37,057 bases of DNA from Methylobrevis pamukkalensis (GTDB lineage: Bacteria > Pseudomonadota > Alphaproteobacteria > Rhizobiales > Pleomorphomonadaceae), in contig NZ_MCRJ01000026.1 of assembly GCF_001720135.1 (NCBI RefSeq), positions 1 to 37,057 of the forward strand. Direction: 5' to 3'. Position 1 is the first letter of the stretch. Each line of letters opens with the position of its first letter. The position numbers and the translations under genes are program-made. The notes beneath the pieces were generated by a model. That model searched no databases. It was not told the origin of the DNA and worked only from the letters and a program-made list of their open reading frames with translations. Of the stretch, positions 8,675 through 26,766 are shown piece after piece.

Positions 8675-10332
8675 ATGCTCGATCAGGAACCGGCAGAGGC
8701 GGACGCAGCGTCCGCCGTCCGCTTCGACGAGCACTATGACGTCGTCGTGGTCGGCTCGGGCAGTGCCGGCGCCAGCGCGGCGCTGAAGGCCGCGACCGGC
8801 GGCCTCAAGGTCCTGATCCTCGAGAAGACCGACAAGCTCGGCGGCACCAGTGCCATGTCCGGCGCGGGCGCTGGATTCCGGCCAATCACCATGCCGCCGC
8901 CGCCGGCCTTGCCGACAGCCCCGCCGAGGCGCTCGAATACCTGCGCTCGGCCTCGCCGGAAAGCTGGCGCGAGGCCGAGGACAAGCGCTGGCAGGCCTTT
9001 GCCGAGACCGCGCCGCGCATGCTGGCCTTCGTCGAAAGCGCCACACCGCTGAAATTCCGCCTCACCGACGAGCCGGACCCGATGGCCGAGCGCCCCGGCG
9101 GCAAGGCGAAGGGGCGGATGGTGTCACCCGAACCGATCTCGCGCCGCCTGCTCGGTCCGCTGGCAAGGAAGCTGCGCCGCTCCACGCTGCCGCACATCTT
9201 CAGCTATCAGGAGATGCTGTCCGCCGACCCCTATCACACGCCGATCCGCGCCGGCCTGAAGCTGTGGCCGAAGCTCGCCTGGCGTCTGCTGACGGGCATC
9301 CGCGGGCAGGGCAACGCGCTGATGACCGGCCTGCTCAAGGGCTGCCTCGACGCCGGCTGTCGCATCGAGACCGGCGCGCGCGGCCTCGAACTCGTCGCCG
9401 ACGAGGCCGGCGGCGTCACCGGCGTCGTCTTCCAGCAGGGCGCCCGGCGCCGCCGCGTGGCGGCGTCAAGGGGCGTGGTGCTCGCGGCCGGCGGCTTCGA
9501 CTGGAACGAGGCGATGCGCGCCGCGCATTTTCCCGGCCCCTTCGACCGGATCGGCGGCCCGGCCGGCAACGAGGGCGATGCCCATGTGATGGCCGAGGCG
9601 GCCGGCGCGGCGCTGACCCGCATGGACCAGGCCAACGTCTTCCCCTGCCTGCCGACCCGCTACGAGGGCCGGCGCCACGGCCTGCCGATGGTCTTCCAGG
9701 GCGAGCCGCATTCGATCCTCGTCGGCCGCCACGGCCGGCGCTTCGTGTCCGAATGCGACTACAACGTCGGCGAGGAACTCGACCGCCGTGATCCGGAGAC
9801 CGGGGAGGGCATCCACCTGCCGGCCTGGGTGATCGCCGACAGCCGCTTCCCGAAGACCTCGCTGATGTTCCGCTGGTATGCGCGCTACGAGCCGGACTGG
9901 ATCGTCCGGGGCCACACGATCGCCGACCTTGCCGGCCGGATCGGGCTGCCGGCGGCCGAGCTGGAGGCAAGCGTCGCCCGCTTCAACGGCTTCTGCGCGA
10001 AAGGCCACGACGCGGACTTCCAGCGCGGCGAGAGCAAGTGGGAGGCCAAGAAATTCGGCGGCACCGCCGTTCAGCTGAAACCGATCGAGGTCGGCCCCTT
10101 CCTCGCGCTCACCTTCAACCGCTCGATCATAGGCACCAAGGGCGGGGTCGCCACCAACGAGAAGGGCCAGGCCCTGCGCCCCGACGGCAGCGTCGTCGCC
10201 GGGCTCTACGCCGCCGGCCTGACCATGGCCAATCCGATCGGCACCCGGGCGCTTGGCGCGGGAACCACCATCGGCCCCAACCTGACCTGGGGCTTCATCG
10301 CGGCCGAGACCCTGCTCAAGGACAACCGCTGA
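8675..10332 (+). CDS. FAD-dependent oxidoreductase, fumarate reductase/ketosteroid dehydrogenase-like (one apparent frameshift)
   Basis: The N-terminus has an FAD Rossmann fingerprint (DVVVVGSGSAGASAAL, residues ~22-37, then ILEKTDKLGGTSAMSGAG). The C-terminus has the family's second FAD segment (GLYAAGLTMANPIGTRALGAG followed by TTIGPNLTWGF). This places it with flavoproteins that insert or reduce C=C bonds next to a carbonyl. The frame breaks near 8870, where GCC TGG ATT reads GCTGGATT; adding one C restores AWIPANHHAAAAGL and 552 residues. ATG 8675 follows GGGAG. It is the first gene of the operon with E1/E2 and the mutase-like gene, so it may desaturate or reduce a pathway acyl intermediate. 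Substrate unknown. Confidence 0.85.
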
Positions 10333-10361
10333 CCGCCGCCACCGCCTTGCGAAAGACGCCC

Positions 10362-11351
10362 ATGCCGGACCCAAGCCTCGCCAACGCGCCCTCGATCGAG
10401 GAGCATCTGGAAATCTTCCGCAAGATGGTGGTCGTGCGCCGCCTCGAGGAGGCCCTGCGCGAGATGCACCGCCAGGGCAAGACCCGCGGGCCGATCCACT
10501 GCTGCGACGGGCAGGAGGCGGTGGGCGTTGCCGCCACCGCCATGCTGCGGCCGACCGATCTTCTGACCAGCACCCACCGCGGCCACGCCAACTATGTCGG
10601 CAAGGGGCTCTCCACCCGCGCCATCGTCGCCGAGATCTTCGGCCGCGCCACCGGCTGCTGCGGCGGCCGAGCCGGGCACATGCTGGTCGCCGACATCGAC
10701 CACGGCCTGATCGGCGGCAACGCCATCGTCGGCGCCGGCATTCCCGCCGCCACCGGCATGGCGGCGGCGATCCAGCTGAAGAAGCTCGACGACGTTGCCA
10801 TGTGCATCTTCGGCGACGGCGCGGCCCAGACCGGCATCTGCCACGAGGCGATGAACATCGCCGCCCTGTGGGCGCTGCCGGTCGTGTTCGTGCTGGAGCA
10901 CAACGCCTATGGCCTCACCGTTGCGGCCGAGAAGCAGTCGTCGATCGAGACCCTGTCGGTGCGCGCCGCCGGCTACGGCATGCCGGGCGTCACCATCGAC
11001 GGCAACGACGCCGTGGTCGTCTACCGCACGATCGCCGATGCGGTCGCCCGGGCGCGGCGCGGCGAGGGGCCGAGCCTCGTCGAATGCCGCACCTACCGGA
11101 TGACCGGCTTTTCCACGAGCGACATGGGCGGCTACCAGAGCGCCGACGAGATGGCGGCCTGGGCGGACAAGGATCCGATCCGCCGCACCTGGGACGTGCT
11201 CGCCGCCGAAGTCGGCGCCGCCCGGCTCGACGCGCTGACCGCCGAGGCCGAGGCCGAGGTGCGCGACGCCTTCGAGACCGCGTTGTCCGATCCCTTCCCG
11301 GTCTTCGAGCCCCATCCCGCCAGCAATCCGCATTCGGTGGCCCTGTCATGA
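10362..11351 (+). CDS. Thiamine-diphosphate dehydrogenase E1 component, alpha subunit (acetoin/2-oxoacid dehydrogenase type)
   Basis: This 329-residue E1 alpha subunit has the TPP motif, with GDG at 151-153 and Asn181 in VLEHNAYGL, and the HRGH loop near 72-75. With E1 beta it would decarboxylate or cleave its substrate and pass the acyl group to the lipoyl E2. The following E2 is fused to an alpha/beta hydrolase as in acetoin dehydrogenase, so an acetoin- or diketone-like substrate is as possible as a branched-chain 2-oxo acid. The gene is intact, 29 bp after the flavoprotein, and its stop overlaps the E1 beta start (ATGA). No E3 gene lies in the window. Confidence 0.9.
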   Translation: MPDPSLANAPSIEEHLEIFRKMVVVRRLEEALREMHRQGKTRGPIHCCDGQEAVGVAATAMLRPTDLLTSTHRGHANYVGKGLSTRAIVAEIFGRATGCCGGRAGHMLVADIDHGLIGGNAIVGAGIPAATGMAAAIQLKKLDDVAMCIFGDGAAQTGICHEAMNIAALWALPVVFVLEHNAYGLTVAAEKQSSIETLSVRAAGYGMPGVTIDGNDAVVVYRTIADAVARARRGEGPSLVECRTYRMTGFSTSDMGGYQSADEMAAWADKDPIRRTWDVLAAEVGAARLDALTAEAEAEVRDAFETALSDPFPVFEPHPASNPHSVALS

Positions 11352-12322
11352 CCAGCCTGCGCTACGCCGAAGCCCTCAACCGGGCGCTCCGCGAGGAAAT
11401 GACCCGCGATCCGATGGTCTGGCTGTTCGGCGAGGACATCGCCACCTATGGCGGCGTCTTCAAGGTGACCAAGGATCTTCTGGGCGAATTCGGCCCAGGC
11501 CGCGTCCGCGACACGCCGATCAGCGAGCAGACGCTCACCGCCATGGCCGTGACCGCCGCCATGGCCGGCACCCGGCCGGTGCTGGAGATCATGTATGCCG
11601 ATTTCCTGCCGCTCTCGATCGACGCCCTCGTCAACCAGGCCGGCGTCTTCGACTACATCTGGGGCGGGCAGGTCTCGATCCCGATGGTGCTCCGCACGCA
11701 GGGCGGTGGCGGCGCCGGGGCCGGCGCGCAGCATTCCAAGAGCCTCGACGCCTTCGTCGCCCACATTCCCGGCCTGAAGGTGGTGGCACCGGCCACGCCC
11801 GCCGACGCCTACGGCCTGCTGAAGGCGGCGATCCGCGACCCGAACCCGGTGATCGTCCTCGAACACAAGCTGCTCTACAACCTGCGCGGCGAGGTGCCGG
11901 AGGACGGCGGCCTCATCGAGATCGGCCGGGCCCGCACCGCCCGCGAAGGGCGCGACGTCTCGATCTTCGCCACCTCGCGCATGGTGCACCTGTCCCTGGA
12001 GGCGGCCGAGAAGCTGGCGGCCGAAGGCATCGAGGCCGAGGTCATCGACCTGCGCTCGCTGCGCCCGCTCGACGTCGGGGCCATCGTCGCCTCGGTGGCG
12101 AAGACCCACCACGCGGTGGTGGTCAACGAAGGCTGGCGCTTCTGCGGCTATGGCGCGGAACTCTCGGCAACGATCATGGAGCAGGCCTTCGACGATCTCG
12201 ACGCGCCTGTGGAGCGCGTCGGCGCGATGGACGTCGCCATCCCCTACAGCGAGCCGCTGGAAAAGACCGTGCTGCCCGACGTCGAGGCGATCATGGCGGC
12301 CGTGCGCCGGGCGAGGCGGTGA
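11348..12322 (+). CDS. Thiamine-diphosphate dehydrogenase E1 component, beta subunit
   Basis: This 324-residue transketolase-type beta subunit has FGEDIATYGGVFKVT near 27-41, the TPP-activating glutamate in TPISEQTL (Glu60), and QGGGGAGAGAQHSKSLDAF, where the family has the conserved GG-QHS loop. The C-terminal transketolase domain contains EVIDLRSLRPLD. It completes the alpha2beta2 E1 with the preceding gene, which it overlaps by 4 nt. The lipoyl-E2 gene starts 4 bp downstream. The reading frame is intact. The substrate class (acetoin, branched-chain 2-oxo acid or a novel one) cannot be decided from the sequence. Confidence 0.92.
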   Translation: MTSLRYAEALNRALREEMTRDPMVWLFGEDIATYGGVFKVTKDLLGEFGPGRVRDTPISEQTLTAMAVTAAMAGTRPVLEIMYADFLPLSIDALVNQAGVFDYIWGGQVSIPMVLRTQGGGGAGAGAQHSKSLDAFVAHIPGLKVVAPATPADAYGLLKAAIRDPNPVIVLEHKLLYNLRGEVPEDGGLIEIGRARTAREGRDVSIFATSRMVHLSLEAAEKLAAEGIEAEVIDLRSLRPLDVGAIVASVAKTHHAVVVNEGWRFCGYGAELSATIMEQAFDDLDAPVERVGAMDVAIPYSEPLEKTVLPDVEAIMAAVRRARR

Positions 12323-12326
12323 GGCC

Positions 12327-13588
12327 ATGGCGATCGACATCACGCTGAACGGCGCCGGCGGCGAATACATGGAATCGGCGACCGTGGTCGCCTGGGAGGT
12401 TGCACCCGGCGCGTCGGTGAAGCGCGGCGACCTGCTCGTCACCGTCGAGACCGCCAAGGCCGCGACCGAGGTGGAGGCACCCGACGACGGCGTGTTCGCC
12501 GAGATTCTGGCGCCGGTCGGCACGGAAGTCGCCATCGGCACCGTGCTCGGCCGGCTGGCGACGGCCGGGGAGGCGGTGGCCGCGCCGGTTGCCGCCGCGC
12601 CGGCGACGGCAGCACATCTGCCGGTGCAGCTTTCCGAACCCGAGGCCAGCCCCAAGCCCTTCGCCGCCACGGACCGCATCGTCGCCTCGCCGCTCGCCCG
12701 GCGCATCGCGAAGGAAAAGGGCATCGATCTCGCCGCCGTCGCCGGCAGCGGCCCGCGCGGCCGCATCAAGCTGCGCGACCTGCCGGCCGAAGGTGCTTCG
12801 GCCAGCGCCGTGCCGGCCGCATCGGCGCGCCCTGCATCCACGGCAGCGCCTTCCGCCCGGCCCGTGGTCGTCCTCGTTCACGGCTTCGGCGCCGACCGCT
12901 TCGCCTGGCGCTCGGTCAAGCGCCTGCTCGAGGACCGCTTCGACGTCCACACCCCCGAACTTCTCGCCCACGGCGACCGGGGCGGCACGGCAACCGACCT
13001 CGACGAGCTTGCCGCCGCGCTGGAAGCCGACCTTCTCGCCGCAGGCACGATACGGTCCATCTCGTCGGCCATTCGCTCGGCGGCGCCGTCTGCCTCGCCC
13101 TTGCCGAAAGCGGCCGGCTCGACGTGCGCTCGCTCACGCTGATTGCCCCCGCCGGCCTCGGCCCGGAGATCGACGGCGGCTTCCTGCAGGGCTTTCTCGC
13201 CGCAACCACGGCGGACGACCTCGAACCGGTGCTCACCCGGCTGGTCGCCGACCCGGCGGCGCTGCCGCGCGGCTATGTCGCCGCCGTGCTGCGCGAGCGG
13301 CAGACCAAGGATCTCGTCACCGGACAGGCCGCGATGGCCGCCGCCCTGTTCCCCTGGGGCCGTCAGACCGTCGATCTGAGGTCCGCGCTCGGCCACCACG
13401 CCGGGCCGATCCGCCTCGTCTGGGGCGCGGACGACCGGATCATCCCCAGCAGCCATGCCGCCGGCATCCCCGGCCATGTCGGCGTCCATCTTCTTCCCGG
13501 CGTGGGTCACATGCCCAACACCGAGGCGCCGGAGATCCTCGTCCGCATCATCGCCGAGACCGTGCGCTCGGCAGGCGGCGCCGGATGA
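12327..13588 (+). CDS. Lipoyl E2 fused to alpha/beta hydrolase, AcoC-like (one apparent frameshift)
   Basis: Three parts are visible. A lipoyl domain at 1-80 has the lipoylated lysine in VETAKAATEVEAP (Lys44). A peripheral-subunit-binding domain at about 116-150 reads ASPLARRIAKEKGIDLAAV then SGPRGRIKLRDL. After a Pro/Ala linker, an alpha/beta hydrolase has LVHGFGADRFAW, nucleophile VGHSLGG (Ser near 250), WGADDRI and GVGHMPN. Acetoin dehydrogenase E2 (AcoC) has this order instead of the usual CAT domain. The frame breaks near 13047, where one C of a CC pair seems lost before DTVHLVGHSLGG; restored length is 420. It overlaps the next gene by ATGA. The substrate need not be acetoin. Confidence 0.85.
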
Positions 13589-15376
13589 CCGCCGCCGTGC
13601 GCCTGGGCTCTGTGCTCGATCCGATCCGGCGCGATCCTGTGCTCGGCGGCGTACAGCTTGGCGGGCGCGAGCTTCTGGCCCGTGGCCGGGCGCTGGCCCG
13701 GTCGGTGACGGTCGGCCCGAACCCGTTCCTCGATCTTCACGGCGTCGCCTCGGAGCTTGCCTTCAAGCGCCGGACCATGGCGGAAGGCCGGATCGCCTTC
13801 CACGCCCAGATCGGCTACCGCAGCCTCGACGACAGTCGCCGCGCCTATGCCGAGGTCCACGACCGGCTGGCGGCGACGGGGGCGGCGCCGGACCGCTACG
13901 GCATCTGCCTCGACTGGAGCATGGGCTTTGCCCGCGCCGACCGGCCCGGCCGGCCGCGCGGCACGGGCCTGATCCTCGACCGGCCGGAGGATTTTGCCGC
14001 GCTCACCGCCATGGCGCCGGTCGCGCCGCATTTCGGCGACTTCGTGCTCGGCATGCCGGCGGCGGTGGAGAACACGTCCGCCGCGATCGCCGCCGGGTCC
14101 ACCACCATCGGCAATCTCGCCCAGTATTTCACCTTCCGCCTGCCGGGCTTTTCCGACGATGTCGCCACTACGGCGGCGACCGTGGAGGCGCTGGGGCTGA
14201 TCGCCGGGCAGGACCGGGAGATGCTGGTCCATTCCAACCTCGACGACGGCTATGCCGCCTGGTTCGAGGACATGGCCTCCGCGCTCGGCTTTGCCATGGT
14301 CGAGCGCTGGATCGTCGAGGACCTGATCGGCGTGCCGCTCGGCCACTGTTTCGGCCACACCTATTCCGACCCGGTCAAGCGCTTCGCCTTCCATGTGGCG
14401 CTCGCCGAGGTCTGCCCGACGCCCGGCACCATGCTCTACGGCAACACCACGATCTACGGCGCCGATCCGGCCCGCAACTTCGGGGCGATGGCCAGCTACG
14501 GCCTCGTCGATCTGGCCGCCTGATGCGGCGCCACACCGGCCATGCGGTCACGCCGATCCCGGTCGCCGAGGCCACCCGCATTCCGCGCCCGGCGAGATCG
14601 TCGAGGCGCATCTGGCGATGCGCGGCCTGCTCGACCGGATGCCCGATCTTGCTCCGCTGATGTCCGCCGCTCCGGCCGAGACGATGGCGGCCGGGCTCGT
14701 CGCCCGTGGCCGGCGCTTTGCCGAACGGCTGCGGGACGGCCTCGCCGAAGCCGGCTACGACATGGGTGATCCGGCCGAACTGCTGCTTGCGCTGCGGCGG
14801 ATCGGCCCGGCCGCGCTGGAGGCGATCTTCGCCGAACCGGCGGACACAAGGGACATCGTCGCCAGCCCCTTCGTCGACGAGATCGAGGATCTTGCCCGCC
14901 GCGCGCTTGCCGCCAGCGATCCGGCGGCGGTGACGGCGGTGGGCCGCAAGCGCCCCCGCGTGGTCGTTGCCACCACCGACGTGCATTTCTACGGCAAGCG
15001 GCTGATCGACACCGTGCTCGGCCGCATCGGCGCCGAGGTGATCGACGGAGGCGTCAGCGCCGACCCGGAAACGCTGGCGGAGATCGCCGCCCGCAGCGGC
15101 GCGGCGGCGCTGGCACTCTCCACCTACAACGGCATCGCCCTCGATTTCGCCCGCAGCCTGCGCGCGGCGCTCGCCCGCCGCGGGGTGGCGCCGCGGCTCT
15201 TCATCGGCGGGCGGCTCAACCAGATCATGGACGACACCGGCGGCTCGATGCCGGTCGATGTGACCGCCGAACTCGCCCAGTTCGGCGTCACGCCCTGCGC
15301 CGACGTCGAGACCTTCGTCCGCCTGCTCGCCGACCTCGATCCAGCTAACCGGGACCCACAGGAGATGCCGTCATGA
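13585..15376 (+). CDS. Cobalamin-binding, glutamate-mutase-like protein (barrel + B12 domain; frameshifts)
   Basis: The C-terminal ~130 residues form a B12-binding domain. RKRPRVVVATTDVHFYGKRL contains DxHxxG (DVHFYG, histidine near residue 467), the base-off/His-on cobalamin signature, followed by GAEVIDGGVSADPETLAE and ALSTYNGIALDF. The ~450 residues before it look like a TIM-barrel catalytic part of glutamate-mutase size (FDLHGV-like start, STTIGNLAQYFTFRLPGF, YGNTTIYGADPARNFG). The frame shifts near 14520 (loss of C would join DLAA to LMRRHTGHAVTPIPVAEATR) and near 14590 (CCC to CC before GEIVEAHL). Restored, it is 597 residues. Alternatively TGATG at 14521-14525 is a true boundary and barrel and B12 parts are separate genes. 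The B12 domain is firm; the mutase reaction is inferred. Confidence 0.7.
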
Positions 15377-15693
15377 TCTTCGACCACCGCACCTACACCG
15401 CCGTGCCGAACAAGCTCCAGACTTTCCTCGATCTTTACGAGAAGGAGGGCCTGCCGATGCAGCGCCACTATCTCGGCGAGCCCTTCGGCTTCTTCCAGAG
15501 CCACATCGGCGACCTGTTCCGCACCGTCCACCTGTGGAAGTTCGACAGCCTTGCCGACCGCGAGGCCCGCCGCGGCGCCATGGAGGCCGATCCGAACTGG
15601 ACCGCCTACCGCCAGCGCGTGGTCGAGGCCAGCGTGCTGACCGACATGCGCAACCAGATCCTGAAGCCGGTGTCCTTCTTCGAGGTGAAATGA
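15373..15693 (+). CDS. NIPSNAP-family protein
   Basis: This 106-residue alpha/beta ferredoxin-like protein has the NIPSNAP pattern: MIFDHRTYTAVPNKLQTFL at the start, GFFQSHIGDLFRTVHLW in the middle, and FDSLADREARRGAM with WTAYRQRV toward the end. Family members are small dimeric proteins, often in catabolic operons, with no agreed reaction; some related dimeric barrels are enzymes or carry unstable intermediates. It overlaps the mutase-like gene by ATGA and the next gene by ATGA, so it is made with them. A helper or isomerase-like role in the pathway is a guess. Confidence 0.82.
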   Translation: MIFDHRTYTAVPNKLQTFLDLYEKEGLPMQRHYLGEPFGFFQSHIGDLFRTVHLWKFDSLADREARRGAMEADPNWTAYRQRVVEASVLTDMRNQILKPVSFFEVK

Positions 15694-16607
15694 CCGCGTC
15701 GTCCGCCACCCCGCAGACCCTGCGGCTCGATTTCGTCTGCGGCGACCTCCGGCTGGAGGTCGCCTGCGAGCCGGCCCGCGCGCCCCGCACCTTCGCGGCG
15801 CTCGGCGCAACGCTGCCGCTCGACGTCGACCTCCACTGCCCGAAGATCGCCGGCAGCCACATCTACTGGCACGCCCCGTTTCTCGCCGACGTGGAGGGGG
15901 CGATCGACGTGATGGATGCGGCGCCCGGCGCCTTCATCTACTGGCCGGAACGCCAGTTCCTCGAACTCGTCTACGCCCCGCTCCAGGCCGAGACCGCCGC
16001 CGTCACCTGGCTCGGCCATGCGGTCGGCGACATCGCCGGGCTGAAGGCGCTGGGCGAGGGCCTGCGTCGCAGCCATGGCCGCCGCCGCACGACGGCCCGG
16101 TTGTCCGCGCCCGAATTTGCCCCGACGACGCCCGCCGAGAAGCCCGGCGTGCCGACGGAGATCGTGGCCACGCGCAAGGCGCTTTGGGCGCGGCGGCCGG
16201 CCGACATCGCCGGCCTGCTCGCCTCCCGCGCGCTGATGCATCCGGCCGGGCCGCTGTTCATGGCCGAGTCCGAGGCGCGCATCCTTCACGAATTCCTCTG
16301 GCGCCTGCGGGGCCGGGAGCAGGGGGCGGGCCGGTTTGCGGCGAACATCGCCGCGCTGAAGGCCGCCGACCGGCTGGAGGGCTTCTGCCATCTCGGTCTC
16401 TGCGGCGGTGCGGTGCGCCGGCTGGCCGCCGCCTTCCTCGACACGTCGATCCCGTTTGCGCCGCTGCTCGAGGAGGCGGTGCTCACCGCCGGGCGGATCG
16501 CCGCCAGCCTCGACCTCGAAATTCCCTGGCACGACGTCAACGTGGCGACGCGCAACGCGCTCGACGCCCGCGACGGGCAGGATGCCGCCGTGGAGATCGT
16601 GACATGA
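15690..16607 (+). CDS. DUF3830-like N-terminal domain fused to an unrecognised C-terminal domain
   Basis: The 305-residue protein begins with a region of about 120 residues that resembles DUF3830, a cyclophilin-like fold (LRLDFVCGDLRLEVACE, APRTFAALGATLPLDVDLHC, PGAFIYWPERQFLELVY). After a linker near residue 140-155, the remaining ~150 residues (GVPTEIVATRKALWARRPAD onward) match nothing I recognise. That part has a Gly-Cys-rich turn HLGLCGGAVRRLAAAF and ends with DVNVATRNALDARDGQDAA. Stand-alone DUF3830 proteins are much shorter. It sits between the NIPSNAP and dehydrogenase genes with 4-nt overlaps on both sides, so it belongs to the pathway. I assign no function. Confidence 0.55.
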   Translation: MTASSATPQTLRLDFVCGDLRLEVACEPARAPRTFAALGATLPLDVDLHCPKIAGSHIYWHAPFLADVEGAIDVMDAAPGAFIYWPERQFLELVYAPLQAETAAVTWLGHAVGDIAGLKALGEGLRRSHGRRRTTARLSAPEFAPTTPAEKPGVPTEIVATRKALWARRPADIAGLLASRALMHPAGPLFMAESEARILHEFLWRLRGREQGAGRFAANIAALKAADRLEGFCHLGLCGGAVRRLAAAFLDTSIPFAPLLEEAVLTAGRIAASLDLEIPWHDVNVATRNALDARDGQDAAVEIVT

Positions 16608-17550
16608 CCGAGACGCCCGCGAATTCCCGTCCGATCCGCACCGTCGGCGTCGTCGCCTTGGCACCATCGGCGCGCGCTGGGCGGTGTATTTCGCCGCCGC
16701 CGGCCTCGACGTGGTGGTCCACGACCCGCATCCCGCGCGCTGGGACGCCTTCCTTGCCGAGCGGGCGGGGCTGGAGGCGGAGGTCGCGGCGCTGCGGGCC
16801 GGCGGGGCGGCAACGCTGGCCGGATCGATCACCTGCGCACCGGACATCGAGGACCTTGCCCCCGCCGACTTCGTGCAGGAATGCGCGCCGGAACGGATCG
16901 AGCTGAAGCGGGACCTGCTGCCGCGGATCGAGGCGGCGGTCGGCGACGACGTGGTGATCGCCTCGTCCTCCTCGGCGCTGCTGGTCACGGAGATGCAGGC
17001 CGCATGCACCCGTCCGGAGCGGATCGTGCTCGGCCATCCGTTCAATCCGGCGCATCTGATGCCGCTGGTCGAGGTGGTTGGCGGCGAGGGCACGGCGCCC
17101 TGGGCCGTCACCGCCGCCCGCGACTTCTATGACGTGATCGGCAAGAAGCCGGTGGTGCTGTCGCGCGAGATCACCGGCCATCTCGCCCTGCGGCTGATGG
17201 GGGCGATGTGGCGCGAGGCGATCGCGCTGGTCGCCTCGGGCGTGGCCACGGCGGAAGATGTCGACCGCGCCTTCCAGTATGGTCCCGGCCCGAAGTGGCT
17301 GCTGCAGGGCGCCTTCATTTCCAATGCGCTGAATGCTGCCGGCATGGCCGAGTTCCTCGATCGCTACGGCCCGACCTACGAGGCGATCTGGGACGACCTG
17401 ATGACTGCCTCGCTCGACGCACCGACCAGGGCCGCGGTGGTGGCGGGCACGGAGGCGGCGATGGCCGGGCGCAGCGTCGAGACGCTGAAGGCCGAGCGCG
17501 AGGCGGGCCTCGTCCCACTTCTGGCGCTGATGGACAGACAGGGCGCCTGA
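16604..17550 (+). CDS. 3-hydroxyacyl-CoA/carnitine/L-gulonate-type 3-dehydrogenase (one apparent frameshift)
   Basis: The protein oxidises a 3-hydroxy acid or its CoA ester with NAD+. It has a Rossmann loop GLGTIGARW (18-26), DFVQECAPERIELKRDL, the catalytic region SSSSALLVTEM with GHPFNPAHLMPLVEVVGG (His near 145, Glu near 155), and a dehydrogenase C-terminal domain (GVATAEDVDRAFQYGPGPKW). The latter resembles carnitine and L-gulonate 3-dehydrogenases more than FadB. The frame breaks near 16655, where GTCGGCCTT reads GTCGCCTT; adding one G restores VGVVGLGTIG and 315 residues. It starts in the ATGA overlap with the DUF3830-like gene. It may act on the product of the mutase-like step. Confidence 0.85.
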
Positions 17551-17588
17551 ATCGCGCCCGAGCGGCACGATGAACGGCATCGGAGAGC

Positions 17589-18344
17589 ATGAGCATGGCG
17601 ATCGGACCCTATCGCACGGCGCTGGTCACCGGCGCCTCGCGCGGCATCGGCGCCGCGATCTGCCGCCGGCTGGCTGCCCGCGGCATGGCCGTCATCGGCC
17701 TTGCGCGTGACGCGGCGGCGCTGGAGGCGCTGGCCGTGGAGATCGGCATCACCCCGCTGGTTGCCGATGTCACGGACACGGCGGCGGTGACGGCGGGCCT
17801 CGGCGCGGCGGAGATCGACGTGCTGATCTCCAACGCCGGCTATGTCGCCGCCGTCCGGCCGCTGCACGAGCAGACGTCCGAGGAGATCGACCGCACAATC
17901 GACGTCAACCTGCGCGCGCCGCTGCATCTGGCGCGGGCGCTGCTGCCGGGGATGATCGCGCGGCGGCGCGGCCATGTGATCCACGTCACCACCACGGCCG
18001 CCCACGCGGTGTTCGGCGGCACCGCGCCCTATGGCGCGGCCAAGGCGGGCCTGTCCCATGCCGGCGCGGTGATGCGCTACGACCTCGTCGGCACCGGCGT
18101 GCGGCTCACCGAGATCGTGCCGGGCCGGGTCGAGACCGATGTCTATCTGACAGCCTTCGGCGGCGACCGCGAGCGCCTGCGCGGCACCATGTATGCGGAT
18201 GTGCGCGCGCTCCAGCCGGACGATGTCGCGGCCGCCGTCGTTGCCGCGCTGGACATGCCCGAGCATGTGGACATTGCCCGGCTCGACGTCGTACCGACCG
18301 ACCAGGCGCCGGGCGGGCATCGCTACGCCGACCGGCCGGAGTGA
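17589..18344 (+). CDS. SDR-family oxidoreductase, last gene of the mutase operon
   Basis: This 251-residue classical SDR has TGASRGIG at 14-21, SNAG at 81-84, and YGAAK with Tyr148 and Lys152. The residue 13 before the tyrosine, normally the catalytic serine, is Thr135 in HVTTTAAHAVFGG. Threonine can substitute in some SDRs, so activity is likely but not certain. PGRVETDVYLTAFGG supplies the usual active-site lid. Start ATG 17589 follows GGAGAG; ATG 17595 is an alternative. It is 38 bp after the dehydrogenase gene and ends 3 bp from the convergent ProC-like gene. The product is probably an alcohol or hydroxy-acid dehydrogenase. Confidence 0.85.
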   Translation: MSMAIGPYRTALVTGASRGIGAAICRRLAARGMAVIGLARDAAALEALAVEIGITPLVADVTDTAAVTAGLGAAEIDVLISNAGYVAAVRPLHEQTSEEIDRTIDVNLRAPLHLARALLPGMIARRRGHVIHVTTTAAHAVFGGTAPYGAAKAGLSHAGAVMRYDLVGTGVRLTEIVPGRVETDVYLTAFGGDRERLRGTMYADVRALQPDDVAAAVVAALDMPEHVDIARLDVVPTDQAPGGHRYADRPE

Positions 18345-18347
18345 AAG

Positions 18348-19118
18348 CTAGTCTGGTGACTTGCCGCGCAGCTTCGCGTCCACCGCGTCCAGCGCGGCGG
18401 CAAGGCTCTTCGGCACGCCGCGGTCGGCGAGGATGCCGAGGCCGAGGGCGGTGATGCCGCCGGGGGTGGTGAGGCGGGCGACGAGATCGCCGACCGGCGT
18501 CTCCGGCTCGTCCTCCACCATGCCGGCGGCGGCGGCAAAGGTGCGGGCGGCCAGCATGCGCGCGGTCGCGGGGTCGAGCCCGCGCTCGGTCAGCCAGCCG
18601 GCGGTGACGGCGATCAAGTCGTGCACCCAGCCGTAGAGCGCGGCGGTCGCGGTCGCGGTCTCGAAGTCGGTCTCGGAGGCAAGGCCGAGCACCGGGCCAA
18701 GCCGGGCGAGCAGCGCACGGGCTCGCGGCTCGTCCGGATAGAGGGGCAGGGCGCCGGTGCCGATCGCCACCGCGCTGACCGGCATCGCCCGCACCACGGT
18801 GGCCGGTCCTGCGGCGGCGGCAAGCCGTCCGAGCGGCACGCCGGCACAGACGGAGACGACGATCTGGTCGGATCGAAGCCTGACATCCTCCAGAGCGGCA
18901 ACCGCCTGGGCGGGCCGGACGGCGAGGAAAAGGACATCGCAGCCGTCTGCAAGGCGCTGGTTGTCGGCGGCGAGGTTCACACCGTGGCGGGCGGCCAGCT
19001 CCGGCCCCATGCCCCGGCGCGACACCGTCATGTCACCCGCCGGAACGCCCGCGCGCAGGAACCCGCGCAGCAGATAGCCGGCGAGATGGCCGGCGCCGAG
19101 AAAACCGATTGCGGGCAC
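18348..19118 (-). CDS. Pyrroline-5-carboxylate reductase-like imine/oxidoreductase
   Basis: This 256-residue protein has the ProC architecture. An N-terminal Rossmann domain (IGFLGAGHLAGYLLRGFL, residues 4-21) is followed by the VSVCAGVPL and VRAMPVSAVAIGTGALPLY segments, where P5CR has its V-R-x-M-P-N-x-P motif. The all-helical dimerisation domain contains LTTPGGITALGL, corresponding to the P5CR Thr-Pro-Gly-Gly-Thr loop. The VRAMPVS variant (Val for Asn) suggests a paralogue rather than housekeeping ProC. The start is GTG at 19118, preceded by AAAGGA. It is convergent with the SDR gene and divergent from the GntR gene, and may reduce a cyclic imine or 2-oxo intermediate of the pathway. Confidence 0.75.
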   Translation of the reverse strand: MPAIGFLGAGHLAGYLLRGFLRAGVPAGDMTVSRRGMGPELAARHGVNLAADNQRLADGCDVLFLAVRPAQAVAALEDVRLRSDQIVVSVCAGVPLGRLAAAAGPATVVRAMPVSAVAIGTGALPLYPDEPRARALLARLGPVLGLASETDFETATATAALYGWVHDLIAVTAGWLTERGLDPATARMLAARTFAAAAGMVEDEPETPVGDLVARLTTPGGITALGLGILADRGVPKSLAAALDAVDAKLRGKSPD

Positions 19119-19237
19119 TGGGCAAATCCTTTTGAAACGGACAGGGAAGTGTGCGCACCACGCATGATCCGCCGCGCCGGCCGGCAGTCCGGACCCCTTC
19201 GCTGCCTTGCGAGGGAGAGAGGAAGCGGGAAGAGACG

Positions 19238-19971
19238 ATGCCGAAATCCGAGGATGCAGGGGCGAAGCCGCGCGCGGCCCGCGCCGCAGCGCCGACAGTG
19301 CCAGCCGTGCCTATCAGGCGATCCGCCGCCTCGTCGTCGAATTCCGGCTGAAGCCGGAGGAGCGGATCAACGAGGTGCAGCTTGCACAGTCGCTCGGCCT
19401 GTCGCGCACGCCGGTGCGCGAGGCGTTGAACCGGCTGGCAAGCGAGGGCTTCCTCGTGTTCACGCCCAACCGCGGCTTCGTGTTCAAGGCGCTGGAGATC
19501 GAGGACCTGGTGCGCGTCTTCGAACTGCGCTCGATCGTCGAGACCGGCAGCATCGCGCTCGCCTGCAAGCGGGCGAGCGACGCCGGCATCGCCGAGCTTG
19601 CCGCCTTCTGGGACGAGGCGCTGGAGCGCTATCGCCGCGAGGATCCCGACGAGATCCTCGAACTCGACGAGGCGTTCCACGTCCGGATCGCGGCGCTGTC
19701 GGGCAACGCCGAGGTGGTGAAGGCGCTGCAGAGCATCAACGCCCGCATCCGCTTCGTCCGCCGCATCCAGATCGAGCGCGGCGCCTGGCATCCCCGGCTC
19801 GTCACCGAACACACCGAACTGGTGGAGAGCCTGATTGCCCGCGACGCGGTCCGCGCCACCGAGATCCTGCGCCGCCACATCTCGATGACGATCGAGGATG
19901 CCGCGCTGGTGCTGAAAGAGGCCCTGTTCAAACTCTACGTTGCCGATTCCGCCAGCGTGTCGCAATCGTAG
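19238..19971 (+). CDS. GntR-family (FadR/VanR-like) transcriptional regulator (one apparent frameshift)
   Basis: A winged HTH (EERINEVQLAQSLGLSRTPV with REALNRLASEGFLVFTPNRG) is followed by a helical FCD effector domain (FELRSIVETGSIALACKRAS, DEAFHVRIAALSGNAEVVKAL, HTELVESLIARDAVRA). The family uses the FCD pocket, often with a metal, to sense organic acids or amino acids. The ATG at 19238 (after GGAAG) is in another frame; one base appears lost between about 19268 and 19295, ahead of SASRAYQAIRRLVVEF. Restored length is about 244. A TTG at 19207 in the downstream frame is a weaker alternative start. It lies between the mutase operon and importer operon, whose promoters share operator-like sites, so it probably controls both. 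Confidence 0.87.
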
Positions 19972-20017
19972 ATCCTCCTGCTGCCGCTTGTGGCGCCATG
20001 CCCTGAAAAAGATCACA

Positions 20018-20075
20018 TGTTGAACACACAATTGTCGACACTTTCCTTGACGTAGTGTCGACACTCTGGTGTCAT
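20018..20075 (+). promoter_or_regulatory. Putative importer-operon promoter with operator repeats
   Basis: TTGACG (20047-20052) and TGTCAT (20070-20075) are 17 bp apart. The spacer contains the perfect 12-bp palindrome AGTGTCGACACT (20054-20065). Its right 10 bp, TGTCGACACT, also occurs at 20033-20042, 23 bp upstream, and TGTTGAACA at 20018-20026 is a third short dyad. Multiple phased dyads overlapping -35/-10 suggest repression, most simply by the adjacent GntR regulator. The 5' leader to the start at 20215 is about 135 nt and holds no gene. Confidence 0.55.
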
Positions 20076-20214
20076 CCGCTGGTAAGCAGCTCCTGAAACG
20101 ACCCGGACGACAACAAGGGCGAGGGAGCAGCAGCGGCGATGCGGGTCCGGATGCCCATCGATCGGATCGGGTACCGGCGACTGTCGGCAAAGCCAGACAA
20201 GAGGGGATATCCGG

Positions 20215-21339
20215 ATGAAACGGTCACTGCTTTCGCTGGTCGGGCTCGCGGCACTCGTCTCCACCTCGCTCACGCCCGTCATGGCCGAGGAGGTCACCAT
20301 CGGCGCCGAGGCGCCGCTGTCGGGACCGCAGGCGCTGTTCGGCGTCACCTGGCACAACGGCATCAAGATGTATTTCGACGAGGTCAACGCCAAGGGCGGC
20401 GTCAACGGCAAGACCTTCGTGCTCGAGCAGCTCGACGACAAGGCCGACCCGCGCGAGGGCACGCTCGTCGCCCAGAAGCTCTGCGACGACGACAACGTGA
20501 AGGCGGCGATCGGCCCCTTCAACAGCGGCGTCGCCCAAGCCTCGCTGTCGATCTACGGCGAGTGCGGCATGCCGCAGCTGGTGTTCGGCTCCAATCCGGC
20601 GCTGACCACCCAGGGCTTCACCCATCTGTTCCGTCCGGTGGCCAACGACTTCGCGCAGGGCGGCCTGCCGGCGAAATACGCCTTCGAGACGCTGAAGGCG
20701 ACCAAGGCCGCCGTCATCCACGACAAGCAGGTGTTCGGCCAGGGCGTCGCGACGATCTTCACCAGGGATTTCGAGGGCTTCGGCGGCACGGTCGTCTCGT
20801 CCTCGGCCGTCAATCCGACCGACGTCGACTTCACCGCCCTGATCACTCAGCTGAAGTCGCAGTCGCCGGAGGTGATCTACCTCGGCGCCGTGATGCCGCA
20901 GTTGGCGCTGTTCGCCAAGCAGATGAAGGAGCAGGGCCTCGAGGCCAAGCTGATCGTGCCGGACGGCGGCTACACGCCCGATCTGGCCGCCCAGGCCGGC
21001 AAGGACGCCGCCCAGGGCGTGGTCGTCTCCTTCCAGGTGCCGCCGATGGACGCCTCCGAGCCGCTCAAGGCCTTTGCGGCCGCCTACAAGGCGAAGTTCG
21101 GCGAGGACGTCGGTCCCTACTCGGTCTACGGCTACGTGATCGGCCAGATCGCGGTCGAGGCCGTCGCCAAGGCGGCGTCCACCGAGCGTGAGGACATCAT
21201 CGAGGCGCTGCGCACGATCAAGATCGACACCGCCGTCGGTCCGATCGAGTTCACCGAGACCGGCGACCTGAAGGTCGCGCCGGTGTTCCTCTATGCCGTC
21301 GATGGCGACGGCTTCAAGCTGGTCGCCTCCAGCGAGTGA
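20215..21339 (+). CDS. Branched-chain amino acid-type ABC transporter, periplasmic substrate-binding protein
   Basis: This 374-residue periplasmic-binding protein is of the LivK/Leu-Ile-Val type I fold. A Sec signal peptide covers about residues 1-24 (positive MKRS, hydrophobic LLSLVGLAALVSTSL, cleavage near VMA-EE). The mature part begins EVTIGAEAPLSGPQALFG, has the NAKGGVNGK segment, and later VIHDKQVFGQGVATIF and SVYGYVIGQIAVEAV. These features define the HAAT family, whose members also bind amides, aromatic acids and other compounds, so the ligand is open. GAGGGGATATCCGG precedes the ATG. First gene of a four-component importer; the GntR-like operators lie upstream. Confidence 0.93.
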   Translation: MKRSLLSLVGLAALVSTSLTPVMAEEVTIGAEAPLSGPQALFGVTWHNGIKMYFDEVNAKGGVNGKTFVLEQLDDKADPREGTLVAQKLCDDDNVKAAIGPFNSGVAQASLSIYGECGMPQLVFGSNPALTTQGFTHLFRPVANDFAQGGLPAKYAFETLKATKAAVIHDKQVFGQGVATIFTRDFEGFGGTVVSSSAVNPTDVDFTALITQLKSQSPEVIYLGAVMPQLALFAKQMKEQGLEAKLIVPDGGYTPDLAAQAGKDAAQGVVVSFQVPPMDASEPLKAFAAAYKAKFGEDVGPYSVYGYVIGQIAVEAVAKAASTEREDIIEALRTIKIDTAVGPIEFTETGDLKVAPVFLYAVDGDGFKLVASSE

Positions 21340-21435
21340 CCGCCCGGCGGAAACGCCGATCGCCGGGTGCATGCCGTTCCGTCTCTCCCGCGGACGGCGT
21401 GCACCCGGCCTTCTTCCTCCGTTGTGGGCCAGGGC

Positions 21436-22386
21436 ATGACAGGGATCATCATCCAGCAGATCTTCAACGCGCTGACCATCGGCGCGATCTATGCGATGAT
21501 CGCGCTGGGCTATACGATGGTCTACGGCGTGCTGAGGCTGATCAATTTCGTGCATGGCGACCTGTTCATGCTCGGCGCCTACGTCGCGCTCGCCGGCTTC
21601 GTGCTGCTCGCCCCCGGCGGCGGCCTCGTCTGGGCGCTCGCCGCGGCCCTGATCGCGATCGCGGTGTTCATGGTCGTCGGCGGGGTCGGCGTCGCCATCG
21701 AGCGCACCGCCTACAAGCCGCTGCGCAATTCCAACCGTCTGGCGCCGATGCTGAGCTCGCTCGGCCTGTCGCTCGCGCTGCAGACCGCCGTGCAGATCAC
21801 GATGGGCCCGCAGCCGATCGCCTTCCAGAGCCTGTTTCCGGCCATCCCCCTCGATTTCCTCGGCGCGCGCATCACCACGGTGCAGATCGGCATCGTCGTC
21901 GCCGCGTTGCTGCTGATGGTCGGGCTGAAGCTGTTCATCGCCCGCAGCCGGCTCGGCGTCGTCGTCCGGGCGGTGTCGGAGAACCGGCGCACCGCCCAGC
22001 TTCTCGGCGTCGACGTCGACAAGGCGATCAGCACGATCTTCTTCATCGGCCCCGGCCTCGGCGCGCTCGGCGGCGTGCTGTTTGCCAGTTACTACGGGGT
22101 GATGATGCCGACCATGGGCATCATCATCGGCCTCAAGGCCTTCACCGCGGCGATCCTCGGCGGCATCGGCTCGATCACCGGCGCGGTCGTCGGCGGCTTT
22201 CTGCTCGCCTTCTTCGAGGTGTTCGGCACCGCCATGCTGCCGATCCTCACCAACGGATGGCTCGGCACCGAATACCGGGACATCTTCGCCTTCCTGATGC
22301 TGATCCTCGTCCTGCTGTTCCGCCCCGCCGGCCTGTTCGGCGAGCAGACCTCCGAGGAATCGATGGTGATGAAGAGGGACTTCTGA
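21436..22386 (+). CDS. Branched-chain amino acid-type ABC transporter permease, LivH family
   Basis: This 316-residue inner-membrane permease has about eight hydrophobic segments. Family signatures are FNALTIGAIYAMIALGYTMV near the N-terminus, RLINFVHGDLFMLGAY (the conserved NFAHG-like motif), and VRAVSENRRTAQLLGVDVDK, the cytoplasmic loop that contacts the ATPases. I chose ATG 21436 because it is followed at once by the first transmembrane segment; the upstream ATG at 21367 would add 23 residues without membrane character. It is 96 bp after the binding-protein gene and overlaps the LivM-type gene as TGATG. It pairs with LivM to form the channel. Confidence 0.93.
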   Translation: MTGIIIQQIFNALTIGAIYAMIALGYTMVYGVLRLINFVHGDLFMLGAYVALAGFVLLAPGGGLVWALAAALIAIAVFMVVGGVGVAIERTAYKPLRNSNRLAPMLSSLGLSLALQTAVQITMGPQPIAFQSLFPAIPLDFLGARITTVQIGIVVAALLLMVGLKLFIARSRLGVVVRAVSENRRTAQLLGVDVDKAISTIFFIGPGLGALGGVLFASYYGVMMPTMGIIIGLKAFTAAILGGIGSITGAVVGGFLLAFFEVFGTAMLPILTNGWLGTEYRDIFAFLMLILVLLFRPAGLFGEQTSEESMVMKRDF

Positions 22387-23411
22387 TGGCCGGACCTTCC
22401 ACAGACGGCGCCCGCGCTCCGGGAAGCACCGCAGAGAGCGCCCCCGAAAATGCCATGGTGCGCAATGCCCTGCGGGCCGGGCTCCTGCTCGTCGTCATCA
22501 CGCTCGTCCTCGTGCCGTTCCAGTCGACCTATGCGGTCCGCGTCGCCGACAGCATCCTGATCTACGTGCTGCTCGGCATCGGCCTCAACATCGTCGTCGG
22601 CTACACCGGCCTGCTCGACCTCGGCTTCGTCGCCTTCTACGCGGTCGGCGCCTACACCTATGCGCTGCTGGCAAGCCCCCAGCTCGGCCTGCACCTGCCG
22701 TTCCTGGTGATCCTGCCGATCGCGGTGATCCTCGGCGGCCTTGCCGGCATCCTGCTCGGCTTTCCGGTGCTGCGCCTGCGCGGCGACTATCTTGCCATCG
22801 TCACCCTCGGCTTCGGCGAGATCATCCGCGTCCTCATCAACAACGCCGACACCGTCACCAACGGTCCGCGCGGCGTGATGCGGATCGACCGGATCGATGT
22901 GGCCGGCTTCACCATCTCGCGGCCGATCGACTTCTACTGGCTGCTGCTGGTGACGGTCGCGATCGTCGCCGTGATCGCCTTCCGGCTGGAAAAGTCGATC
23001 CTCGGCAAGGGCTGGGCGGCGATCCGCGAAGACCAGGACGCGGCGCGCGGCATCGGCATCGACACCACGAAGGCCAAGCTTGCCGCCTTTGCCATCAGCG
23101 CGATGATCGGCTCGCTCGCCGGCGTCATCTTCGCCGCGTTCCAGCGCTTCGTGAGCCCCGAGAGCTTCTCGCTGCAGGAATCGATCCTGATCGTGCTGAT
23201 CATCGTCATCGGCGGCGTCGGCAACATCCTCGGTGTCTTCGTCGGCGCCACGGTGCTGCTGCTGCTGCCGGAAATCCTGCGCGACTATGCCGAACTGCGC
23301 ATGCTGCTGCTCGGCCTGCTGATGGCGGTGCTGATCGTGCTGCGTCCGCAGGGGCTCGTGCCGCGCAGCTTCGGACCCGACCGCCTGCTTGCCGCCCTGA
23401 GGCGCCGATGA
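22386..23411 (+). CDS. Branched-chain amino acid-type ABC transporter permease, LivM family
   Basis: This 341-residue permease starts with a ~30-residue hydrophilic Ala/Pro-rich leader, then multiple membrane segments. LivM markers are YVLLGIGLNIVVGYTGLLDL, GFVAFYAVGAYTYALL, LRLRGDYLAIVTLGFGEI, and the coupling loop GKGWAAIREDQDAARGIGID. The C-terminus ends VLRPQGLVPRSFG, usual for the family. The gene overlaps LivH-type (TGATG) and the ATPase gene (ATGA), so all importer subunits are made from one transcript. The frame is intact. Confidence 0.94.
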   Translation: MAGPSTDGARAPGSTAESAPENAMVRNALRAGLLLVVITLVLVPFQSTYAVRVADSILIYVLLGIGLNIVVGYTGLLDLGFVAFYAVGAYTYALLASPQLGLHLPFLVILPIAVILGGLAGILLGFPVLRLRGDYLAIVTLGFGEIIRVLINNADTVTNGPRGVMRIDRIDVAGFTISRPIDFYWLLLVTVAIVAVIAFRLEKSILGKGWAAIREDQDAARGIGIDTTKAKLAAFAISAMIGSLAGVIFAAFQRFVSPESFSLQESILIVLIIVIGGVGNILGVFVGATVLLLLPEILRDYAELRMLLLGLLMAVLIVLRPQGLVPRSFGPDRLLAALRRR

Positions 23412-24246
23412 CCCTCGAACTCAGCCATCTCTTCAAGCGCTACGGCCAGCTCGTCACCATCGACGACCTCACCGCCACCTTCGAGCCCGGCCTCGTCTAC
23501 GGCCTGATCGGCCCGAACGGCGCCGGCAAGTCGACGATCGTCAACCTCATCGCCGGCTCCTATGCGCTCTCCGGCGGCGAGATCCGCCTCGACGGCCGGC
23601 GGCTCGACGGCATGGCCAAGCATGCGATCGCCAATGCCGGCATCGCCCGCACCTACCAGAACATCCGCCTCTTCGACCAGATGTCGGTGATCGGCAACCT
23701 CGAGGTCTGCTTCTATCCGCAGGCGTGGGCGGCACCTGGCGCGAGGTGTTCTGGCCGCCGGCAGCACGGGCAAGGGCCGAGGCGCGCCGGGCGCACTGCA
23801 TGGCGCTGCTGGAGGAATTCGGCCTCGCCCATCTGGCCGATGCCGACGCCGAAAGCCTGTCCTACGGCCGCCAGCGCATGCTGGAGATCGCCCGCGCGCT
23901 GGTGACCAGTCCGCGCGTGCTGCTGCTCGACGAGCCGGCCGCCGGCCTCAACCACGGCGAGACCGCCGAACTGATGCGGCGCCTTGAAAAGCTGCGCTCG
24001 CCCGACCGGATCATGATCGTCGTCGAGCACGACATGGACCTGGTGATGTCGCTCTGCGACCGCATCGTCGTCCTTCACCACGGCCAGCTTCTCGGCATGG
24101 GCACGCCCGCCGAGATCCAGGCCGATCCCGCCGTCCAGGCCGCCTACCTCGGAACCGCCGATGACCTCGACGCCATCCGCACCCTTGCTCAGCATCGCCG
24201 GTCTGGCAGCGGGCTACGGTCGCAAGCAGATCCTGTCTGGCATTGA
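23408..24246 (+). CDS. Branched-chain amino acid-type ABC transporter ATPase, LivG family (one apparent frameshift)
   Basis: The protein energises the importer. Walker A is GPNGAGKS near residue 37, a GIARTYQNIRLFDQMSVIGN Q-loop follows, the signature is LSYGRQRMLEIARAL, Walker B is VLLLDEPAAGLN, and the switch histidine is in VVEHDMDLVMSLCD. The frame breaks near 23724 (GCC to GC before GTGGGCGGC); adding one C joins CFYPQA to VGGTWREVFWPP. As read, the gene runs 86 bp into the next ATPase gene and ends in RRSGSGLRSQADPVWH, which is not LivG-like. A further base loss just before 24161 would give the usual ATGA overlap, so the true end may be 24164. Confidence 0.88.
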
Positions 24247-24910
24247 CCTCGAGGTCAGGGCCGGCGAAATCGTGGTCGTGCTCGGCGCCAACGGGGCCGG
24301 CAAGACGACGCTGCTGAACGCGGTCTCCGGCATGTGCCGGATCAACGCCGGCCGCATCACCTTCAAGGGCACCGACATCACCGCCATGCGGCCCGACCGC
24401 ATCGCCGCCGCCGGCCTCAGCCACTGTCCGGAAGGCCGGCAGATCTTCCAGCGCCTGACGGTCGAGGAGAATCTGGTCGTTGCCCACGTCGGTCGCGGCG
24501 GCAAGAGCTTCGAGACATTGCGGGAAGAGGCCTTCGCGCTGTTTCCGATCCTCAGGGAACGGCGCAACAGCGCAGCCAGCCGGCTGTCCGGCGGCCAGCA
24601 GCAGATGCTGGCGATCGGCCGCGCGCTGATGGCCGAGCCCGATCTCGTCATGCTGGACGAGCCGTCGCTGGGCCTCGCGCCCAAGCTCATCACCCAGATC
24701 TTCCAGATCGTGCTCGACCTTGCCGCCGCCGGCATCTCGATCCTGCTCGTCGAGCAGAATGTCCGCCTCGCGCTCGAACTCGGCGACTACGGCTACGCGC
24801 TGGAATCGGGACGGTTGCGGGTGGAGGGGGGCGCCCAGAAGCTTGCCGCCGATCCGCGCCTTGCCGAGGTCTATCTGGCCGGCGGCGACAAGGGGGCGGT
24901 GCATGCGTAA
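24161..24910 (+). CDS. Branched-chain amino acid-type ABC transporter ATPase, LivF family
   Basis: This 249-residue ATPase has Walker A GANGAGKTT near 41-49, LSHCPEGRQIFQRLTVEENL (Q-loop and LivF-typical sequence), the signature SRLSGGQQQMLAIGRALMA, Walker B LVMLDEPSLGLAPK and switch region ILLVEQNVRLALEL. It is intact and forms the ATPase pair with the LivG-type subunit. Its start overlaps the preceding gene, and its stop overlaps the ATG of the flavoprotein gene (ATGCGTAA), linking transport to the catabolic enzymes downstream. Confidence 0.94.
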   Translation: MTSTPSAPLLSIAGLAAGYGRKQILSGIDLEVRAGEIVVVLGANGAGKTTLLNAVSGMCRINAGRITFKGTDITAMRPDRIAAAGLSHCPEGRQIFQRLTVEENLVVAHVGRGGKSFETLREEAFALFPILRERRNSAASRLSGGQQQMLAIGRALMAEPDLVMLDEPSLGLAPKLITQIFQIVLDLAAAGISILLVEQNVRLALELGDYGYALESGRLRVEGGAQKLAADPRLAEVYLAGGDKGAVHA

Positions 24911-26195: not shown

Positions 26196-26217
26196 CAGCC
26201 TTCCGGAGGACACGACG

Positions 26218-26759
26218 ATGACCGACGCCGCCCCAGAGACGCCCGCCCCAGCAACCCATGCAGTCGGGGACTTCCTGATCCTCGGCCCGGACGAGGGCGA
26301 GAACCACTGGCAGCCGGTGCCGGCCAACGGTCACATCTCGGTCCGCGTCGCGCCGAAGCTCGTCAACATGGAGCATCCCGTCGGCCTCGGCACCCAGACG
26401 GTGCGCCCGGCTGCTACGTCCGCGAACATGCCCATGACCGCAACGAGGAGGTGATCCACGTCATCTCCGGAACCGGCAAGGCGGTGATCGACGGCACGGA
26501 GCACCGCATGGTGCCGGGCACGACGATCTTCCTCGGCAAGAACCGGGTGCACATGTTCATCAACGACGGCGAGGTGGACCTTCACTGGGTCTGGCTGATC
26601 GTGCCCAACGGGCTGGAAGACTTCTTCGAGGCGATCGGCCGGCCGAAGTCGCCTGGCGAGCCGGCGCCCGCGCCCTTCGCCCGCCCGGCCGACGTGCTGG
26701 AGATCGAGCGGCGCACCGTGTTCGCCGCCCCGCCGGCCGGAGGCGGGCGCAAGCCCTGA
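26218..26759 (+). CDS. Cupin-domain protein (one apparent frameshift)
   Basis: The single cupin barrel has motif 1 PGCYVREHAHDRNEEVIHVI (two His and a Glu, the usual metal ligands) and motif 2 PGTTIFLGKNRVHMFINDG. It is flanked by a ~45-residue N-terminal extension and a Pro/Ala-rich tail. The frame breaks in the C run at 26406-26408; one extra C joins GLGTQTVR to PGCYVREHAHD and gives 180 residues. GGAGG lies 9 nt before the ATG. It follows the oxidase by 22 bp. Cupins in catabolic operons serve as isomerases, dioxygenases or binding proteins; which one this is cannot be told. Confidence 0.8.
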
Positions 26760-26766
26760 CATCCAA

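Follow-up and report, generated by a model that had tools for sequence, protein, structure and literature searches.

In the Methylobrevis pamukkalensis DNA analyzed here (37,057 nucleotides, contig NZ_MCRJ01000026.1, hereafter the window), a barrel-type catalytic part and a B12-binding domain are encoded next to each other at 13585-15376, with the reading frame broken between them, which raises the questions of whether they form one enzyme and, if so, what that enzyme acts on. Taking together the computed evidence for a fused chain, its predicted fold and B12 motifs, the conserved neighborhood and the missing signatures of glutamate mutases, aminomutases and CoA mutases, we infer that the product is likely a single-chain adenosylcobalamin (AdoCbl)-dependent carbon-skeleton mutase, its frame having been broken twice, most probably by sequence errors.

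Reading frame and frameshifts

The region 13585-15376 was confirmed to encode, on the plus strand, the barrel part and then the C-terminal B12 domain in three collinear frame pieces. The N-terminal TIM-barrel (catalytic) part occupies 13585-14520 in frame +1 (312 aa), from the ATG at 13585 to an apparent stop, TGA, at 14521-14523. This stop lies in the first disrupted junction (14521-14534), which contains the sequence TGATG and which intact relatives read through. A 17-residue linker segment with the conserved motif GHA..P.PV.EA.RIP follows in frame +3 (14535-14585), and beyond the second junction (14586-14593) the C-terminal helical linker and the B12-binding domain (PF02310) are read in frame +2 (14594-15376), ending with TGA at 15374-15376. 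Alignment with homologs placed a net -1 shift near 14520-14535 and another near 14585-14594, corresponding to the two base losses suspected in the initial annotation. One Neorhizobium protein aligns with all three pieces in the same order, at residues 17-302, 308-324 (65% identity to the linker segment) and 328-578; once joined, the pieces give a chain of about 597 residues, in agreement with the length first proposed. ATGA overlaps are found at both gene ends: at 13585-13588 the start codon overlaps the stop codon of E2, which lies upstream, and at 15373-15376 the stop codon overlaps the start of a NIPSNAP gene; the mutase gene therefore sits inside an operon.

In total, six frameshifts were found within about 20 kb, distributed over five genes of the surrounding cluster, namely those for a flavoprotein (8866-8872), E2 (12974-13049), the mutase (14520-14594), LivG (23725-23728) and a cupin (26403-26415). 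As all six are net -1 shifts, without any gains, and as the assembly is a draft of 348 contigs and 86% completeness, the broken mutase frame is most likely due to base-loss errors of this assembly, which seems to lose single bases systematically.

Fusion and distribution among relatives

Among 84,980 species genomes scanned, 21 related loci were found, 18 of which hold a complete copy as a single open frame from the barrel through the B12 domain. Two are cut by contig ends (L003, fused as far as it is present, and L021), and the remaining one (L022) is itself broken. Full-length, stop-free matches were also found in 11 other genomes out of 289 searched from the same class, at least one of these being the same record as a locus from the larger scan. 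The distribution counts were read by hand, since most "matches" are confined to the B12 domain and belong to other proteins of greater length. Furthermore, eight plasmid records carry the fused mutase, in one place each. Aligning the homologs thus bore out the proposed order of one chain with the barrel first and the B12 domain last, the two parts being fused in all intact relatives as one ORF of about 590 aa.

In the same taxonomic family, 19 other genomes were searched and all lack the gene; hence there is no near relative against which to check the frames. Over the barrel part, the homologs are 48-73% identical to the window, the closest being an Aureimonas protein (73% identity, E 3e-142, far beyond chance). 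Proteins from Rhizobiales plasmids, to which NCBI gives a name only, "cobalamin-dependent protein" (WP_100022278.1, WLS11059.1 and WP_241949860.1), belong to the same family, being 45-50% identical to the Aureimonas protein and having cluster partners in common. One genome with a 51%-identical copy also encodes a fused paralog of 34% identity (G280:C1:2668413-2670167), possibly standing for another substrate class within the family. Literature searches returned no paper describing the mutase family or its pathway, and no report of a substrate, cofactor or activity for any of its members.

Sequence family and predicted fold

The B12 part matches PF02310 (E 3.5e-8, above the curated cut-off) and NF002612 GlmS (E 4.3e-8), the former also being present in all 17 family members analyzed. 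For the barrel, no Pfam or NCBIfam match was found in the window or in the 17 members, including the CoA-mutase barrel models (PF01642 and those of NCBIfam), and no PDB match was obtained by phmmer; a profile search against PDB matched the B12 half only. Likewise, PF06368 (MutE, the E chain) had no match in the window genome and none at E<=0.1 in the 17 members. The initial annotation was accordingly right in describing a sequence unlike the known mutases, and its suggestion of a distinct subclass is upheld.

An AlphaFold2 model was built for the Aureimonas protein from an alignment of 17 intact homologs (mean pLDDT 88.7, pTM 0.90); barrel, helical linker and B12 domain together make up its entire chain. 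In VIA-align, the full-chain model scored highest against the E chain of glutamate mutase (1cb7_B, Z 28.2, 366 residues, 3.5 A), followed by lysine 5,6-aminomutase alpha (Z 26.1), ornithine 4,5-aminomutase (21.7) and methylmalonyl-CoA mutase (about 19-20). Foldseek alone ranked methylmalonyl-CoA mutase first, since this enzyme covers both domains; the two domains (67-597) indeed superpose jointly on it over about 470 aa at 4.2 A. The modeled B12 part matches GlmS (1i9c_A, Z 15.3). When the barrel of the window itself was folded separately (AlphaFold, pLDDT 82, pTM 0.84), its best PDB match was again GlmE (Z 20.4, 270 aa, 3.5 A), with aminomutases at about 17, methylmalonyl-CoA mutase at about 15 and unrelated barrels at about 13.

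B12 motifs and active site

The B12 motifs of the window are DVHxxG (axial His codon at 14984-14986), STYNG (15119-15133) and GG (15206-15211). Across the family the D, the axial His (27 of 27 sequences) and the GG are invariant, while the Gly of DxHxxG is kept in 24 of the 27 sequences and replaced by Ser in three. The pattern of a base-off/His-on B12 domain (DxHxxG...SxL...GG together with PF02310) is present with one substitution, the SxL motif being replaced by STY (S-T-Y-N-G). A PduO-type cobalamin adenosyltransferase is encoded in the same genome, and AdoCbl can therefore be made.

For the barrel, a profile-profile alignment with GlmE, using three GlmE homologs and the 1CB7 chain, stayed below significance (hhalign probability about 1%). 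Forced global alignments were not meaningful, and only the E330 motif aligned locally. In this profile alignment an invariant Glu, encoded at 14568-14570 of the window and numbered E335 in the Aureimonas protein, is aligned to E330 of clostridial GlmE (GlmE PHEA..IPT), a residue that contacts the adenosyl ribose. An invariant Arg, R338, lies after E335. As only this motif aligns locally, we infer the remaining residue map from the fold and the short motif. By this map, the strand-4 and strand-6 segments of the 27 sequences hold no conserved Arg or Lys as a counterpart of R149, and strand 8 has no conserved Lys corresponding to K326. Nor is there a counterpart of E171, the segment equivalent to its loop reading N-(L/I)-(G/S)-Q in 27/27 sequences. 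The invariant R85 and R126 might stand in place of GlmE R66 and R100. Because R149, E171 and K326 of glutamate mutase are all without a counterpart, the substrate is probably not glutamate. The label "glutamate mutase-like" given to the locus initially consequently holds for the fold, where GlmE is the best match, and fails for the active site.

Gene cluster and neighborhood

The mutase gene is part of a catabolic cluster of about 20 genes (window 8798-28310), the gene content of which is nearly the same as that of a stretch of the Neorhizobium plasmid pNCHU2750b, with long collinear runs. Upstream of the mutase, all on the plus strand, are a FAD_binding_2 flavoprotein of the 3-ketosteroid / 4-oxocyclohexanecarboxylate dehydrogenase type (8798-10332, one frameshift) and the genes for TPP E1 alpha, E1 beta and E2 (10377-13588, E2 frameshifted once), the E2 being of the acetoin-dehydrogenase type, i.e. 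with lipoyl, E3-binding and alpha/beta hydrolase parts. Downstream on the same strand follow a NIPSNAP-family protein (15373-15693, E 2.8e-27) and, at 15780-18344, a conserved cluster protein, a lambda-crystallin / carnitine-dehydrogenase-type 3HCDH and a short-chain dehydrogenase. The first of these three (15780-16565, 285 aa in Neorhizobium) had no Pfam or NCBIfam match. On the minus strand, 18348-19118 encodes a pyrroline-5-carboxylate-reductase-like (P5CR-like) protein, whose family is the commonest mutase neighbor: of the 21 species-genome loci, 14 have a member downstream of the mutase, and all four annotated plasmid regions have one in the mutase cluster. The plus strand continues with a GntR-FCD regulator, a LivKHMGF-type ABC importer (LivG frameshifted) and a DAO-family oxidase (19207-26195), the Neorhizobium counterpart of the latter being nearest to L-pipecolate oxidase AmaA. 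Lastly, a cupin (frameshifted), an alpha/beta hydrolase and an aspartate-dehydrogenase-like protein are encoded at 26278-28310. Beside the Aureimonas copy lie flavoprotein, aspartate-dehydrogenase-like, E2 and E1 genes.

Other mutase copies adjoin genes for PhyH or HalD-like dioxygenases, M20 peptidases, or CoA ligases, thiolases and CoA transferases. PhyH dioxygenases are located upstream of the mutase in four loci (L004, L007, L010 and L014), and in Ruegeria sp. HKCCD7303 (L020, 5825-7869) it is preceded by a gene resembling HalD/2OG-Fe(II) oxygenases and by one for an M24 peptidase. Taken together, the neighborhood suggests that the substrate derives from an amino or imino acid and belongs to a catabolic pathway. 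As AMP-ligase, thiolase and CoA-transferase genes are found near some gammaproteobacterial copies, a CoA-linked substrate was also considered, and is possible for the pathway but not for the mutase itself.

Comparison with known mutases and alternative explanations

The order of barrel and then B12 domain in a single chain is already known from methylmalonyl-CoA mutase and 2-methyleneglutarate mutase, and the novelty implied for it in the initial annotation has to be given up; the fusion is ordinary in itself, and the interest lies in the substrate. Among the acyl-CoA mutases (MCM, IcmF, HCM and ECM; 1REQ, 4R3U and 5CJU), methylmalonyl-CoA mutase (MCM) has this order and the same relative domain placement, but the window protein is shorter (about 590 aa), matches no curated barrel model of the group and gives a weaker barrel fold match. 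The 2-methyleneglutarate mutase of Eubacterium barkeri, compared by description only, is a single chain of similar length with a C-terminal B12 domain. Given this common layout and the same class of non-CoA substrates, the window protein could be a member or close relative of that enzyme, but this is unlikely, as its pathway partners, 3-methylitaconate isomerase and dimethylmaleate hydratase, were not found among the neighbors scanned.

The two breaks in the reading frame might instead mean that the gene is a real pseudogene and that the organism has lost the mutase. This, we think, is quite improbable: the frame is open in each half, both are conserved (identity to Aureimonas about 72% and 60%), and the shifts, all single-base losses in a 348-contig draft, are not confined to the mutase but spread over five cluster genes.

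A fused true glutamate mutase, interconverting glutamate and 3-methylaspartate and supplying the aspartate-dehydrogenase-like enzyme, with a 2-oxo-acid dehydrogenase as the next step, would fit the best fold match, the aspartate-dehydrogenase-like gene of the window, Neorhizobium and Aureimonas clusters, and the TPP E1/E2 genes. The likeness to glutamate mutase (GlmE/GlmS, 1CCW/1CB7/6H9E) extends to the barrel fold including its helical extensions, the B12-domain fold and the E330 motif. In clostridial glutamate mutase, however, B12 (S) and barrel (E) parts are on separate chains, whereas the relatives of the window protein are one chain; the barrels have no significant sequence similarity, PF06368 is unmatched, the three catalytic residues have no counterpart in the 27 sequences, and the cluster E2 is of the acetoin type. 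We regard this identity as decidedly unlikely, and the best reading is that the mutase resembles glutamate mutase in fold without being one, departing from it in sequence family, chain organization and catalytic residues.

Even less can be said for a PLP- and B12-dependent aminomutase. The lysine 5,6- and ornithine 4,5-aminomutases (1XRS, 8T0V and 3KOW) have a like barrel fold, second only to GlmE, and the neighboring genes are of amino-acid type, but these enzymes differ in domain layout, the window protein being wholly accounted for by barrel, linker and B12 domain, and in their PLP lysine. In OraE and KamE, this Schiff-base lysine is situated 11 residues after the axial His, a column that reads L/F/M/C/V, never Lys, in 27/27 sequences; an aminomutase is therefore very improbable. 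Two translationally coupled genes or a programmed frameshift, as could be read from TGATG at 14521-14525 (put forward initially as a possible true gene boundary) and from the ATG at 14523 that opens the middle frame, are scarcely credible and the two-gene reading is rejected, since every intact relative reads straight through this point, the ORF from that ATG ends after 45 codons and would take a further shift to continue, and similar -1 shifts occur in five genes within 20 kb.

Proposed reaction and implications

For the single-chain mutase favored here, the following mechanism is proposed. AdoCbl would bind base-off/His-on to the C-terminal Rossmann domain through the DVH motif and be pressed onto the mouth of the barrel, where the 5'-deoxyadenosyl radical would form by Co-C homolysis; the adenosyl ribose would be held with the help of the invariant Glu in the PVTE motif. 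The radical would then take a hydrogen from a small substrate inside the barrel, a group would migrate between neighboring carbons, and the hydrogen would return. The substrate would be an amino or oxo acid in its free form, not linked to CoA. Its catabolic pathway may also employ an imine-reductase-like enzyme, an oxidase and a dehydrogenase of amino-acid type, and a TPP complex of the acetoin type.

On balance, we lean towards an undescribed AdoCbl carbon-skeleton mutase acting on a free amino or oxo acid that is new as a substrate of such enzymes. It would perform the radical step in an aerobic catabolic pathway, likewise undescribed, of Alpha- and Gammaproteobacteria that is sometimes carried on rhizobial plasmids. 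To our knowledge, AdoCbl carbon-skeleton mutases catalyze a very small number of reaction types. Here the family is well defined, its pocket is altered, the model is confident and the cluster is conserved and mostly intact, which makes the search for a new reaction directly testable, and the mutase is found in cultivable bacteria, i.e. Shinella, Phyllobacterium, Neorhizobium, Aureimonas, Leisingera and Ruegeria.
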